Source: Desulfoferula mesophila (GTDB lineage: Bacteria; Desulfobacterota; Desulfarculia; Desulfarculales; Desulfarculaceae). From it: a DNA stretch of 64,000 bases. A program made the position numbers and the translations under genes. The notes under the pieces were generated by a model. It had not been told where the DNA came from. It ran no database searches and was given only the letters and a program-made list of their open reading frames with translations. Location: contig NZ_AP028679.1 of assembly GCF_037076455.1 (NCBI RefSeq), positions 1-64,000 of the forward strand. The letters run 5' to 3'. Of this stretch, positions 22,541 through 27,711 are shown piece after piece. How positions within the stretch are numbered: the first letter of the stretch is position 1; each line of letters starts with the position of its first letter.

Positions 22541-22580
22541 GAAGACGCCCCCGCCCCTACCCGGACCACTTAAAGCGATA

Positions 22581-22620
22581 GCGTAGGTTGGGTAGAGCGC
22601 AGCGAAACCCAACAATTCCC
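22581..22620 (-). repeat. Dispersed hairpin repeat R1 (GTTGGGT...ACCCAAC)
   Basis: GTAGGTTGGGTAGAGCGCAG followed by CGAAACCCAACAATT forms a GTTGGGT/ACCCAAC stem. Nine copies or close relatives occur in the window. The R1 motif is widespread in proteobacterial genomes. Confidence 0.8.
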
Positions 22621-22700
22621 TTTATTCATCGGCCATCCGCGACACCGCCGCGATAATCGCCCATGAACGAGGGCATCCGGGGGACGCCTCCGTCCCCGGT

Positions 22701-23081
22701 CTACTTGCTTTGGCGCTCGGCGCAGGTCTGCTGCCGCATGCCCACCACGACCACCTGGTTTCCCTTGGCGTCGTAGACCTCCACCCGGTCGCTGTACATC
22801 TTGGCCGAGCCGTCTTGGGGCAGGTCCACGATCTTCTGACTCAGGTAGCACACGCCGGGCTTCAGGTTCCAGTTGAACCACACCTGGGTGGGGTCGGCTT
22901 GGCCTCCCTGGTAGGTGCCGTTGGGCGCTACGGTGATGGCGCAGAAGGTGGGGTAGGCCGCGTCGATGACGCAGGCCTGGTAGGCGACGTGGTTATAGAT
23001 GGTGTAGGCGCCCGCCGGGGCGGCCAGGAAACAGCAGCCGACCACCAGCAACGCTGCGGCGAATAGTTTGAGGCGCTTCAT
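22701..23081 (-). CDS. Small secreted cysteine-containing protein
   Basis: The 126-aa protein has a clear signal peptide (MKRLKLFAAALLVVGCCFLAAPAGA) and a mature part of about 100 residues with four Cys, likely forming two disulfides, and a beta-strand-rich pattern. I recognise no family. It is monocistronic on the minus strand beside repeats. Repeat R1 begins 81 bases downstream of its stop. Confidence 0.65.
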   Translation of the reverse strand: MKRLKLFAAALLVVGCCFLAAPAGAYTIYNHVAYQACVIDAAYPTFCAITVAPNGTYQGGQADPTQVWFNWNLKPGVCYLSQKIVDLPQDGSAKMYSDRVEVYDAKGNQVVVVGMRQQTCAERQSK

Positions 23082-23125: not shown

Positions 23126-23518
23126 TTATTTGCGGCCGAATCTGCCCAGGGTGGCGGCCATGGCTCCACCCGTTTCGCGCTTCTCCAGGCCCAGGCGTTT
23201 TTTGAGCAGCGAGCGCTTGGGGTCCAGCAGCACCAGCTCGCTGCCGGGCGGCTCGTCGTCCCCGGCGATGAGCCGGGCGGGGTCCGAGGGCGTGGGCAGG
23301 TCGTCGCCGGCCACGATGCGCTGGCCCAGCTCGAAGGTTAGGGCCTCCACGGCGTTGGCCCGGCAGGCGTCCTTGTCTGCCCCCCAGGCCGTCAGGCGGG
23401 CCAGGTTGGGAAACACCGCCTCCCAGCCGCCCCCGGACATGGGCAGAAGCACCACGGGATAGGCGGGCAGGCTTTCCACCGCCCGCAGCCAGGCCAGCTT
23501 GTCGCGCTTGGGGGACAT
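23126..23518 (-). CDS. HicB-like antitoxin-family protein without HicA
   Basis: The 130-aa protein has the HicB core: YPVVLLPMSGGGWEAVFPNLARLTAWGADKDACRANAVEALTFEL, which fits the RNase-H-like HicB fold of antitoxins, with the usual pattern of a strand, an aromatic and then a long helix. No hicA toxin gene, which would be about 60 codons, is adjacent. It also has a 45-residue basic C-terminal tail (LLDPKRSLLKKRLGLEKRE) not usual for HicB. It is either an orphan or a regulator adapted to another role. Confidence 0.65.
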   Translation of the reverse strand: MSPKRDKLAWLRAVESLPAYPVVLLPMSGGGWEAVFPNLARLTAWGADKDACRANAVEALTFELGQRIVAGDDLPTPSDPARLIAGDDEPPGSELVLLDPKRSLLKKRLGLEKRETGGAMAATLGRFGRK

Positions 23519-23627
23519 GACTCCTCCCGGTCGGGGTGGGCGTTTCGCTGCTACATAGTGCTACAGCCGAGCGGCCAGGGCAAGGGGTTCGGTCTGGCGG
23601 TAGCGGGCTGCGATCGGGGATTAAAGG

Positions 23628-23669
23628 AATTGTTGGGCTTTGCTGCGCTCAACCCAACCTACACGATGG
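23628..23669 (+). repeat. Dispersed hairpin repeat R1
   Basis: TTGTTGGGCTTTGCTGCGCT followed by CAACCCAACCTACAC gives the GTTGGG/CCCAAC stem of R1 in the opposite orientation to the copy at 22581. Confidence 0.75.
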
Positions 23670-23699
23670 CAGGAGGCGATACGACGTGAGGTGCCCACA

Positions 23700-23890
23700 A
23701 GTATCGCCCAACCTCGGCGGGGAGGGTTTTCGCTGCGTCGCCGAAAAACGAAGCTGGAGCCCTGGGGCGACCGCGAATTGCCCTCGGCAGGAAAAGAGGT
23801 GGTCGAGTGCGTCGGCGAGTATCGCCCAAACAGGCGGGGAGGGTTTTCGCTGTGTCGCCGAAAAACGAAGCTGGAGCCCTGGGGCGACCG
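23700..23890. repeat. Pair of 73-74 bp direct repeats
   Basis: Copies at 23700-23773 and 23818-23890 differ at only a few positions and are separated by 44 bases. Shared core is CGCCGAAAAACGAAGCTGGA followed by GCCCTGGGGCGACCG. Reading frames through them on the minus strand repeat APGLQLRFSATQRKPSPP, but nothing suggests they are translated. The rest of 23519-23963 holds R1 and no gene. Confidence 0.85.
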
Positions 23891-23963: not shown

Positions 23964-26291
23964 CTAATTGATTCTATTCCAGCGGGTGCCGGAGGGAGTA
24001 TCGACAAGCTGCACCCCCCGGGCGGCCAGCTCGTCGCGCAGCTTGTCGGCCAGGGCGAAGTCGCCCGCCGTCCGGGCCGCGTCGCGCCGCTTGACCATCT
24101 GCTCGATGTCCGCGTCGCCCGCCGGGGGCTCCAGGTTCATCACCCCCAACACCCGGTTGGCGCTAGCGACGAAGGCCAGCACCTGCTCCACCTGGGCCGC
24201 GTCCATGAGCCCCTGGTTCATCAGGCGGTTGACGCGGCGCACCATGGCGAAAAGCTGGCCCATGGCCTTGGCCACGTTGAGGTCGTGGTCCATGGCCTCC
24301 TGGATGCCGCTCTTGGCCTCGTAGAGAATCTGGTCCAGGTCCGGGGCGGTGGCGCCGGGGGTCATGAAGCGCAGGCGCTCCACGAAGTCGTCCAGGCGCT
24401 CCACCGTCTTGGCCGCCTGGTCCAGCTGCTCGCGCTCATAGGTCAGCGGCCGGCGGTAGTGCTGGCTGAGTAGCCAGAAGCGCACCGCGGCCGGCGAGTA
24501 GCCCAGCTCCAGCACCTCGCGCAGGGTCACGTCGTTGCCCGATACCCGGCTGGCCTTTTTGCCGTCCACCATCACCACCTCGGAGTGCAGCCACATGTTG
24601 GCCAGCGGCTTGCCCGTGAGGCTCTGGGCCACGGCGATCTCGTTTTCGCCGTGGGGAAAGATCAGGTCGGTGGAGGCCAGGTGCAGGTCGAAGGGCTGGC
24701 CCAGGTGCTCGGTGGACATGGTGGCGCATTCCACGTGCCAGCCGGGGCGCACGTTGCCCCAGGGGGTGGACCAGTAGATGCCCGCCTTTAGCTCGGCCAG
24801 GGAGGAGCGCTTGAACAGGGTGAAGTCGCGGGGGTTGTCCTTCTCGTAATAGTCGTAGTCGGTGTGCTTGTCGCTCTGGGTGGCCATGAGGTCCACGCCC
24901 GAGAGCTTGCCGTAGTCGGGGAAGCGGCTGATGTTGAAGTACACGCTGCGGAGCTTTTCGTAGGCCAGATCCTTGGCCAACAGCTCCCGGGCCGCGTCCA
25001 CCATCTGACTGACGTGTTCGCTGGCCTTGGGATAGTCCAGGGCGGGCAGGACGTTCAAGGCGTCCATGTCCTGGTGGAACGCCTGCTGCCAACGGGCGGT
25101 GAACTCCTTCCAGTCGGCCTCCTCGGCCAGGCACTGGTTCACGGTGCGGTCGTCCACGTCGGCGATGTTGATGATCAGCTTGACCTCGAAGCCCCTAAAC
25201 TCCAGATAGCGGCGCACCAGGTCGGCGAAGACCATGCGGCGGCACAGGCCCAGGTCCGGCGGGCCGTCCAGGGAGGGGCCGCAGGCGTAGATGCCCACCT
25301 GGCCGGGACGCACCGGGTTGAGATCTTGTTCCTGGCGGCTCAGGGTGTTGTAGAACCTGAGCGGCACGGGGACCTTTTCGCTGCTGAACAGCGAAGTGGA
25401 CAGATAGCGCTCCCCGCCGTCGGCCATGAGCGCCACCACCACCGAGCCCTCGGGCAGGGTGGCCGCCTGGTCCAGGGCCACCTTCATGGCCGCCCCGGCG
25501 CTCATGCCCACGAAGATGCCTTCCTCGCGGGCCAGGCGGCGGGCGATCTCGTAGGCGCCGTCGTCGTCCACGTTGACCAGCCGGTCCACCTCGCCGGGGC
25601 TGAAGATGCCCGGCGGGTAGGACTCCTTCATGTTCTTGAGGCCCTGAATCTTGTGCCCCTGGTAGGGCTCCACCGCCACCACCTTTACCTTGGGGTCCAG
25701 GCGGTGCAGGCGGCGGGTGAGGCCCATCACCGTGCCGCTGGTGCCCAGGGTGGCCACCACCATACTTACCTTGCCCTGTGTGGCCTGGTAGATCTCGTCG
25801 GCCGTGGAGTTTTCCCGGGCGTGGGCCATCCAGTTGTCTTCGTTGTTGTACTGGTCCACCAGGAAGTAGCGCTCCGGCTCCTCGCGGGCCAGGCGGTAGG
25901 CCTCCTCGATGGCCCCGTCGGTGGCCAGGTGGGCCGGGGTGAGCAGGATGTCGGCCCCGTAGGCCCGAAGGATCTTGCGCCGTTCCAGGGAGGCGGACTC
26001 GGCCATGGTGAACAGCATCTTGTAGCCCTTGACCGCGCAGGCCATGGCCAGGCCGATGCCGGTGTTGCCGCTGGTGGCCTCCAGGACGATCTTGTCCTTG
26101 GTCAGCTCGCCGCGCTTTTCCGCCTGCTCGATCATGTTGAGCGCCGGGCGGTCCTTCACCGAGCCGCCGGGGTTCATGAACTCCAGCTTGGCGTACACCG
26201 TGACGCCGGGGTTGGGATTCAGGCGGTTGATGCGCACCAGGGGGGTGTCGCCCACCAACTGTAGGATGTTGTCCACCACGCGCGCGCTCAT
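23964..26291 (-). CDS. Cysteine synthase fused to a degenerate cysteinyl-tRNA synthetase domain
   Basis: The 775-aa protein has two parts. Residues 1-310 are a PLP-dependent O-acetylserine sulfhydrylase/cysteine synthase with the PLP lysine in NPGGSVKDR (Lys46), TSGNTG (73-78), GTSGT (183-187) and the substrate loop. Residues 312-775 are colinear with CysRS from the YNTLSR start to the C-terminal GTRWNR. The zinc and cysteine-binding residues remain (Cys337, Cys522, His547, Glu551, Trp518), but HIGH reads DLGL (346-349) and KMSKS reads KASRV (579-583), so ATP activation looks lost. The start ATG 26291 has GGGGGAAC before it; an upstream ATG would add 15 non-conserved residues. It is followed by no partner gene. 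Confidence 0.88.
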   Translation of the reverse strand: MSARVVDNILQLVGDTPLVRINRLNPNPGVTVYAKLEFMNPGGSVKDRPALNMIEQAEKRGELTKDKIVLEATSGNTGIGLAMACAVKGYKMLFTMAESASLERRKILRAYGADILLTPAHLATDGAIEEAYRLAREEPERYFLVDQYNNEDNWMAHARENSTADEIYQATQGKVSMVVATLGTSGTVMGLTRRLHRLDPKVKVVAVEPYQGHKIQGLKNMKESYPPGIFSPGEVDRLVNVDDDGAYEIARRLAREEGIFVGMSAGAAMKVALDQAATLPEGSVVVALMADGGERYLSTSLFSSEKVPVPLRFYNTLSRQEQDLNPVRPGQVGIYACGPSLDGPPDLGLCRRMVFADLVRRYLEFRGFEVKLIINIADVDDRTVNQCLAEEADWKEFTARWQQAFHQDMDALNVLPALDYPKASEHVSQMVDAARELLAKDLAYEKLRSVYFNISRFPDYGKLSGVDLMATQSDKHTDYDYYEKDNPRDFTLFKRSSLAELKAGIYWSTPWGNVRPGWHVECATMSTEHLGQPFDLHLASTDLIFPHGENEIAVAQSLTGKPLANMWLHSEVVMVDGKKASRVSGNDVTLREVLELGYSPAAVRFWLLSQHYRRPLTYEREQLDQAAKTVERLDDFVERLRFMTPGATAPDLDQILYEAKSGIQEAMDHDLNVAKAMGQLFAMVRRVNRLMNQGLMDAAQVEQVLAFVASANRVLGVMNLEPPAGDADIEQMVKRRDAARTAGDFALADKLRDELAARGVQLVDTPSGTRWNRIN

Positions 26292-26453: not shown

Positions 26454-27536
26454 CTAGACGTGGTCCTCCAGCACCGCCCGCCATTGAGGATGACGCAGAC
26501 GCTGCAGGGCCTTTTTCTCGATCTGGCGCACCCGCTCACGGGACAGGCCGAAGACCTGGCCCACCTGCTCCAGGGTGTGCTCGTCCTCGTCGCCCAGGCC
26601 GAAGCGCATCTGCAGGATGCGCTTTTCGCGCGCGTCCAGGGACTCCAACGCCTCGCCCAGGTGGATCATCATCTCGCCCTCGCCCACCTTCTCGAAGGGG
26701 CACTCGGCTTCCTTGTTCTCGATGAAGTCGCCCAGCTCGTCGCCGTCCTCGCCCACCGGGGTCTCCAGGCTGGTGGAATCCAGGGTCAGGTTGACGATCT
26801 CCTTGACCTTGCTCTCGTCGATGCCCACCTTCTCGGCCACTTCCTTGGGCAGGGGCTCGCGTCCCAGCTCCTTCAAGAGGCCGTAGTAGACCCGGAAGTA
26901 CTTAGAGCGCAGCTCCAAGAGGTGGATGGGGATGCGGATGGTGCGGGCCTGGTCGTAGATGGCCCGGCTTATGGTCTGGCGAATCCACCAAGAGGCGAAG
27001 GTGCTGAAACGGTAACCGGTCTTGTAGTCGTAGCGGTTCACCGCCTTCATCAGGCCGATGTTGCCTTCCTGGATCAGGTCGGCAAAGCTAAGGCCACGGA
27101 AGGTATACTTTTTGGCGATGGACACGGCCAGGCGCAGGTTGGCTTCCACCATCTCCTGCACCGCCACCTCCACCTGCAAACGGGCGCTGTCGATCTCCTC
27201 CAAGGTCTTGGAGAGCTTCTTGGAGGGCTTGCGCTTGGCGGCGGCCCGCTTGAGCAGCTCGAAGGTCTCGGCCATCACGTCTTCCACGGACAGGGGAGAC
27301 TTGTGGCTGTCGGCCAGCCAGGCCTCGATGCGCTCGCAGTTGTCGAGGGCATCCTTGTCGCCCTTGATGATGGACAGGGCTTTGCACAGGATCTCGTCGC
27401 GGCCGTCCTGGATGGTTTTGCCCAGCTCCAGCTCCCGCTCGGGGGTCAGCAGGTCGCGCCCCTCCACCTCTTTGAAATAGGTGACCGGGGTGTCCAGGCT
27501 GAAGTCCGGTCCTTTTATATTGCGGCTTTCGGCCAT
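26454..27536 (-). CDS. RNA polymerase sigma factor, sigma-70 group 2 (RpoS/RpoD-like)
   Basis: The 360-aa protein has region 1.2 (DTPVTYFKEVEGRDLLTPERE, residues 15-35), a roughly 80-residue insert, region 2 (LIQEGNIGLMKAVNRYD 154-170, YRFSTFASWWIRQTISRAI 175-193), region 3 and region 4 with the -35-binding helix (TLEQVGQVFGLSRERVRQIE 321-340). It lacks region 1.1 of a primary sigma factor, so it is best called a group 2 sigma. MAESRN (27536) is the start; GAGGTAATT lies before it, and the open frame extends upstream without signals. A strong terminator follows. It lies next to no anti-sigma factor. Confidence 0.93.
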   Translation of the reverse strand: MAESRNIKGPDFSLDTPVTYFKEVEGRDLLTPERELELGKTIQDGRDEILCKALSIIKGDKDALDNCERIEAWLADSHKSPLSVEDVMAETFELLKRAAAKRKPSKKLSKTLEEIDSARLQVEVAVQEMVEANLRLAVSIAKKYTFRGLSFADLIQEGNIGLMKAVNRYDYKTGYRFSTFASWWIRQTISRAIYDQARTIRIPIHLLELRSKYFRVYYGLLKELGREPLPKEVAEKVGIDESKVKEIVNLTLDSTSLETPVGEDGDELGDFIENKEAECPFEKVGEGEMMIHLGEALESLDAREKRILQMRFGLGDEDEHTLEQVGQVFGLSRERVRQIEKKALQRLRHPQWRAVLEDHV

Positions 27537-27711
27537 GATAATTACCTCATTCCTTACAGATACCCGCCAGGTCCAGCGCCAGGGGCTACCAGCGCGACGG
27601 GCCTTCAAGTCTGCTTTGGCTTGCCCGGCATAGACCTCTGGCCCATGACGCAGGCGTCTAAAGTTTAAACTAAGCACCGGAGAGCGGAAGTCAACTCCAC
27701 TTCCCGATTAA

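Follow-up and report, generated by a model that had tools for sequence, protein, structure and literature searches.

The question raised by the locus described here is what an apparently complete cysteinyl-tRNA synthetase (CysRS) does at the end of an enzyme that makes cysteine. The locus lies in a 64,000-nucleotide stretch of the Desulfoferula mesophila genome, which is called the window. Its minus strand carries a single unbroken frame of 775 codons with the stop codon at 23964-23966; the preliminary description of this locus had listed its coordinates without naming a strand. A chance origin of this architecture is excluded, because the frame and its key residues are common to relatives that range from 89% down to 42% identity. 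The gene is divided as follows.

23964..26291, minus strand: whole fusion gene, 775 aa plus stop (open frame, translation, kept in relatives)
25386..26291, minus strand: CysM/CysK-type PLP-dependent cysteine synthase, residues 1-302 (PF00291, cysKM/cysM models, active-site columns)
25362..25385, minus strand: short linker, residues 303-310 (low model confidence)
23967..25361, minus strand: CysRS-like half, full length, residues 311-775 (TIGR00435, Foldseek)

In the N-terminal half, Pfam detects PALP (PF00291) at residues 10-289 with 228 bits, and the NCBIfam model cysKM (TIGR01136) scores 346.3 against a cut-off of 344. In the C-terminal half, Pfam detects tRNA-synt_1e at residues 325-627 with 284 bits, DALR_2 at 664-718 and CysS_C at 725-768, and the NCBIfam cysS model TIGR00435 spans residues 311-773 with a score of 374.5 against a cut-off of 340. 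The CysRS-like half comprises the catalytic, DALR and anticodon-binding domains and is colinear with CysRS over its full length, as the preliminary description of this locus had stated. The protein thus scores above the curated threshold meant for functional CysRS, which points to a problem of annotation. The AlphaFold model has a mean pLDDT of 89.6 and a pTM of 0.61; the two halves are individually confident and their mutual arrangement is of low confidence. The pLDDT is below 50 at residues 297-307, the region of the linker, which is 7-15 residues long across 137 fusions. When the predicted structure is searched with Foldseek, the CysRS-like half matches CysRS 8qhp with a target TM of 0.92, and the synthase half matches O-acetylserine sulfhydrylases.

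Other fusions of this kind, which the preliminary description had suggested looking for, are found in 155 of the 395 genomes sampled across the phylum Desulfobacterota and in 142 of the 328 good-quality genomes of that sample. They occur in nearly all members of the family to which the window belongs and in several further families of the class. A scan of named genomes gives at least 567 confirmed relatives. The best 80 of these are from Desulfobacterota wherever the name is specific (e.g. Desulfobulbus elongatus, Desulfofustis glycolicus and Desulfogranum japonicum), none of them is from an organism named from outside this phylum, and the rest are MAGs with broad labels, several of the type 'Proteobacteria bacterium'. 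A tree was built from the CysRS-like half of 46 fusions and from 23 canonical CysRS; all the fusions group on a single branch (SH-aLRT 100), apart from every canonical sequence. This result suggests that the fusion arose once within the sampled set. A published description of the fusion or of its CysRS-like domain was not found among open-licence papers. The enzyme family is widespread, of single origin in this sample and apparently undescribed. One genome without a fusion encodes a free-standing cysteine synthase that shares 54% identity with the synthase half of the fusion (L098; genome G066, contig 2, 139684-140580); this protein is either a pre-fusion form or a form that lost the CysRS-like half. 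Another genome (G011) carries two fusion copies, on contigs 22 and 171, owing either to a strain mixture in the bin or to a duplication.

Conservation was counted in an alignment that combines 137 distinct fusions of nearly full length with 22 canonical CysRS. The synthase half of the window protein has K46, TSGNTG at residues 73-78 and GTSGT at residues 183-187, so that the CysK core is intact, in agreement with the preliminary description. The active-site columns are invariant: K46, SGNTG, the glycines and threonines of the GTxGT loop, S264 and D291 are present in 137/137 fusions, and the free-carboxylate loop TSGNTG is likewise invariant across the alignment (n=137). The fusion is thus, to judge from these residues, very probably a competent cysteine synthase. 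Its acceptor substrate is probably O-phosphoserine, at least in some members. K219, a basic residue that is invariant in 137/137 fusions, aligns with the R210 position of OASS-B, a position tied to the choice of O-phosphoserine in some microorganisms (PMC3805590). However, the fusion has Lys where OASS-B has Arg, and Arg is also found in OASS-B enzymes that use O-acetylserine. K219 is only suggestive of O-phosphoserine use, because C. jejuni CysM uses O-acetylserine exclusively; a basic residue here may be necessary at most, and is not sufficient. O-Phosphoserine is the obvious alternative acceptor, because it is an intermediate of serine synthesis (PMC9855970).

The gene content of the genomes bears on the same point. 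It was examined in 80 good genomes with a fusion, with thresholds of E<=1e-30 for CysK/CysM homologs and E<1e-20 for a CysE-level match. In 38 of these 80 genomes, no CysK/CysM homolog other than the fusion passes the threshold, and a match at the level of CysE (serine acetyltransferase) is missing in 37 of the 38, whereas CysE is present in 41 of the 42 fusion genomes with a second CysK. The Fisher test of this split gives p 1.6e-20, a value that overstates independence because the genomes are related. Among 18 genomes in which a fusion was not detected, 15 have CysE. Together, the split and the fusion-free genomes indicate an association between the fusion and the loss of O-acetylserine-dependent synthesis. 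The 37 fusion-only genomes without CysE indicate that the enzyme works without a supply of O-acetylserine, plausibly on O-phosphoserine. Sequence and gene content together therefore argue strongly that the fusion is independent of CysE.

The host genome of the window, one contig of 4.48 Mb, contains a cysK adjoining a cysE at 3794-3796 kb. The fusion is consequently not the sole route to cysteine there. A separate cysS with HIGH and KMSKS is located at 1478993-1479886. Signs of RNA regulation near the fusion gene were looked for and not found: there is no Rfam match at 20-30 kb of the window, and no tRNA gene in the whole 64 kb. Comparison of about 80 fusion loci does not reveal a common pathway among the neighbours; the recurrent ones are housekeeping genes that differ from clade to clade, including glutamine synthetase, GroEL and dTMP kinase (named by eye). 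In the window, an RpoD/RpoS-like sigma factor frame (also named by eye) occupies 26454-27677 on the minus strand, upstream of the fusion at a distance of about 160 nt, and the two may be co-transcribed. Two direct copies of 58 nt (23716-23773 and 23833-23890), 98% identical and 117 nt apart, are located just downstream of the fusion stop. A 51-nt inverted repeat (22575-22625 / 23620-23670, 84% complementary) encloses two small minus-strand frames (22701-23081 and 23126-23518), and could with them represent a small mobile or repeat element.

The residues of the CysRS-like half were mapped onto E. coli CysRS (1LI5), with the E. coli numbering verified against the K-12 gene.

25281..25283, minus strand: zinc ligand C337 (E. 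coli C28; 1LI5 alignment; Cys in 117/137)
25245..25256, minus strand: degenerate HIGH, residues 346-349, DLGL (E. coli 37-40; alignment)
24726..24728, minus strand: zinc ligand C522 (E. coli C209; 1LI5 alignment; Cys in 123/137)
24651..24653, minus strand: zinc ligand H547 (E. coli H234; 1LI5 alignment; His in 137/137)
24639..24641, minus strand: zinc ligand E551 (E. coli E238; 1LI5 alignment; Glu in only 76/137)
24543..24557, minus strand: degenerate KMSKS, residues 579-583, KASRV (E. coli 266-270; alignment)

The ATP motifs are lost, as had been noticed from the letters of the window, and this is so throughout the family: both HIGH histidines are present in only 4/137 fusions and an intact KMSKS in 0/137. 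A second, separate CysRS occurs in all 80 good fusion-bearing genomes tested and in the genome of the window, where the preliminary description had asked for a normal cysS; a genome with no other CysRS, which would have spoken against its loss-of-function reading, is not among them. In the set of 80, 77 are detected at the first threshold and the remaining three at a lower one, one of them as two adjacent pieces. In that genome (G098, contig 2, 129287-130649; L193 and L198), the sole true CysRS is read as two overlapping pieces in different frames, which reflects either an assembly error or a real frameshift. The motif losses strongly suggest that the CysRS-like half no longer charges tRNA.

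The preliminary description had further proposed that this half kept its cysteine site and may sense free cysteine there. In the window protein, the zinc tetrad is indeed complete, and W518, which aligns with E. coli W205, is retained and is invariant in 137/137 fusions. Across the family, the tetrad is complete in 73/137 fusions and incomplete in 64/137, with at least one zinc cysteine lost in 20/137. In a clade of ten rows in the tree, every zinc ligand except His is replaced (TSHV, TAHV, MMHL, IIHL and similar), and the domain is retained. Cysteine sensing by the zinc pocket is thus not supported as a general explanation, and may still apply in the clade of the window itself.

The conserved features are found elsewhere in this half.

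24765..24962, minus strand: connective-peptide segment, residues 444-509, with two small insertions (fusion-specific invariants)
23967..24119, minus strand: anticodon-binding domain (E. coli R423, R427, W432, D436, R439, D451; PF23493; residue conservation)

PF23493 is detected in 61 of 64 fusion members. According to a passage of PMC12684709 that cites Hauenstein et al. 2004, R427, D436 and the W432 ring of E. coli CysRS make contact with G34, and R423 takes part in a water network. The window equivalents of E. coli R423, R427, W432 and D436 are R736, R740, F745 and D749, and the ring position is also F in the true CysRS of the window genome. This quartet (R, R, W/F/Y, D) is retained together in 136/137 fusions, and in 20/20 of the fusions that lack a zinc cysteine. 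When the invariant residues of canonical CysRS are counted in 68 fusions, the anticodon domain retains a mean fraction of 0.95; the corresponding values are 0.55 for the HIGH half, 0.60 for the connective peptide, 0.62 for the zinc/KMSKS half and 0.47 for the helical domain. The cysteine pocket is not what the family conserves, because a domain kept for its cysteine pocket would show the opposite pattern. These counts indicate that across the fusion family selection has kept the module that reads tRNACys, on which the preliminary description is silent, and not the cysteine pocket. The conservation of R423, R427, D436 and D451 could come partly from fold stability. The connective peptide has acquired features of its own: S449, Y482, R495, L501 and G504 are invariant in 137/137 fusions and absent from canonical CysRS.

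The best reading of these results, which we hold with about as much belief as doubt, is that the protein is a CysE-independent cysteine synthase with a non-charging, tRNACys-binding regulatory domain derived from CysRS. The N-terminal half would combine sulfide with an activated serine to give free cysteine; where CysE is lacking, this serine derivative is most likely O-phosphoserine. The C-terminal half lacks the HIGH/KMSKS chemistry, and some members of the family lack the zinc/cysteine site too; this half would recognise tRNACys, most likely by its GCA anticodon. Occupancy by tRNACys, or the charging state of the latter, may be relayed to the synthase as activation or as feedback, the direction being suggested here only provisionally, through the conserved connective-peptide surface that the family has gained. 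The coupling route may pre-exist, because a communication path linking the anticodon site and the catalytic site is described in E. coli CysRS (PMC9976931). Control of this kind would stand in for the feedback by cysteine to which CysE is normally subject, much as HisZ regulates HisG, and cysteine may act as a second signal in the clade of the window, where the zinc pocket is intact. CysE is the usual point of cysteine feedback. Control by tRNA therefore fits the gene content, because CysE is missing where the fusion stands alone. Binding of tRNACys itself is probable from the conservation of the anticodon reader.

Other functions of the CysRS-like half are conceivable. If it bound free cysteine at the zinc site as a sensor or feedback site for the synthase, the four ligands and W518 of the window protein, the tetrad of 73/137 fusions and the invariance of H547 and W518 would be accounted for; but the tetrad is incomplete in the other 64, the domain persists in a clade with only the His left, and the anticodon domain, the best conserved part, is left out of account, so that we consider this unlikely. 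About equally unlikely is a structural scaffold that binds no ligand and serves to oligomerise or stabilise the synthase. The absence of every catalytic motif agrees with such a role, and the connective-peptide invariants could form an interdomain interface, but a ligand-free part is not expected to hold a base-reading quartet in 136/137 fusions while shedding most CysRS invariants. Conservation of the anticodon domain is explained as well by docking of the fusion on tRNACys alone, or on its complex with the true CysRS, as a channel or depot from which cysteine passes directly to charging without allostery. The separate CysRS in every genome tested (80/80) is compatible with it; however, cysteine is a small diffusible product and the complex with CysRS is purely hypothetical, and we regard this arrangement as improbable.

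Two catalytic roles have very little in their favour overall. E. coli CysRS is reported to make cysteine persulfide with PLP, and to do so independently of charging (PMC10655014), and the fusion partner here is a PLP enzyme. Nevertheless, the lysines reported for the PLP site, K73, K76, K266 and K269, correspond to R382, N385, K579 and R582 in the window protein, and the family does not conserve them; a persulfide synthase of the CysRS type was rejected on this ground as highly improbable. Equally hard to credit is that the half still charges tRNACys, or that the whole protein makes Cys-tRNACys from O-phosphoseryl-tRNACys. The cysS family cut-off is passed and the anticodon reader is kept, but the HIGH and KMSKS motifs have been lost, all 80 genomes tested encode a normal CysRS as well, and the free-carboxylate loop TSGNTG is invariant. 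The tRNA-dependent cysteine pathway (SepRS/SepCysS) was rejected, because O-phosphoseryl-tRNA synthetase is above the cut-off in 0/80 genomes.

A regulatory domain that binds tRNACys, the reading preferred here, has parallels among known systems. HisZ, a paralog of HisRS that has no adenylation activity, activates HisG and conveys feedback by histidine (PMC9437257, PMC9734150). The fusion resembles HisZ-HisG in that an aminoacyl-tRNA synthetase paralog, non-charging to judge from its motifs, is attached to a biosynthetic enzyme for the same amino acid. It differs in being of class I, in concerning cysteine, in its covalent link, in keeping the anticodon-binding domain, and in that its regulation is deduced. 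The fusion shares with canonical CysRS (TIGR00435) the full-length colinear fold, including the DALR and anticodon domains, and in the window member the zinc ligands, but it lacks HIGH, KMSKS and the GGG loop, has insertions and invariants of its own, and forms a separate clade. MshC, the cysteine ligase of mycothiol synthesis, is also a CysRS paralog outside translation. Unlike the fusion, MshC activates cysteine with ATP, and the pattern in the fusion is the reverse; MshC has no counterpart of the anticodon domain, because its profile of 411 positions matches only residues 306-693 of the fusion. CysRS* of Desulfobacterales, a non-standard CysRS-related protein of the same bacterial group, charges SelC* and has no anticodon domain (PMC9437257), whereas the fusion is probably non-charging and yet keeps this domain. 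On the synthase side, the N-terminal fold, the active-site motifs and the Lys at the R210 position of OASS-B are those of CysM, O-phosphoserine sulfhydrylase and OASS-B, from which the fusion differs by its 465-residue CysRS-like half.

By analogy, the fusion would be a further case of a known principle, the regulation of biosynthesis by synthetase paralogs. If the preferred reading is true, it would be the second, independent case after HisZ-HisG of a retired tRNA synthetase that controls the synthesis of its own amino acid, and to our knowledge no earlier regulator of this kind keeps its anticodon reader. It would also represent an amino-acid biosynthetic enzyme that is controlled by tRNA at the protein level. 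Cysteine synthesis in a large part of Desulfobacterota may then be gated directly by tRNACys, with a dead synthetase taking over the feedback role of CysE, a possibility that we place somewhat short of even. If true, this would explain how cysteine is made and controlled without serine acetyltransferase in many sulfate-reducing and related bacteria.
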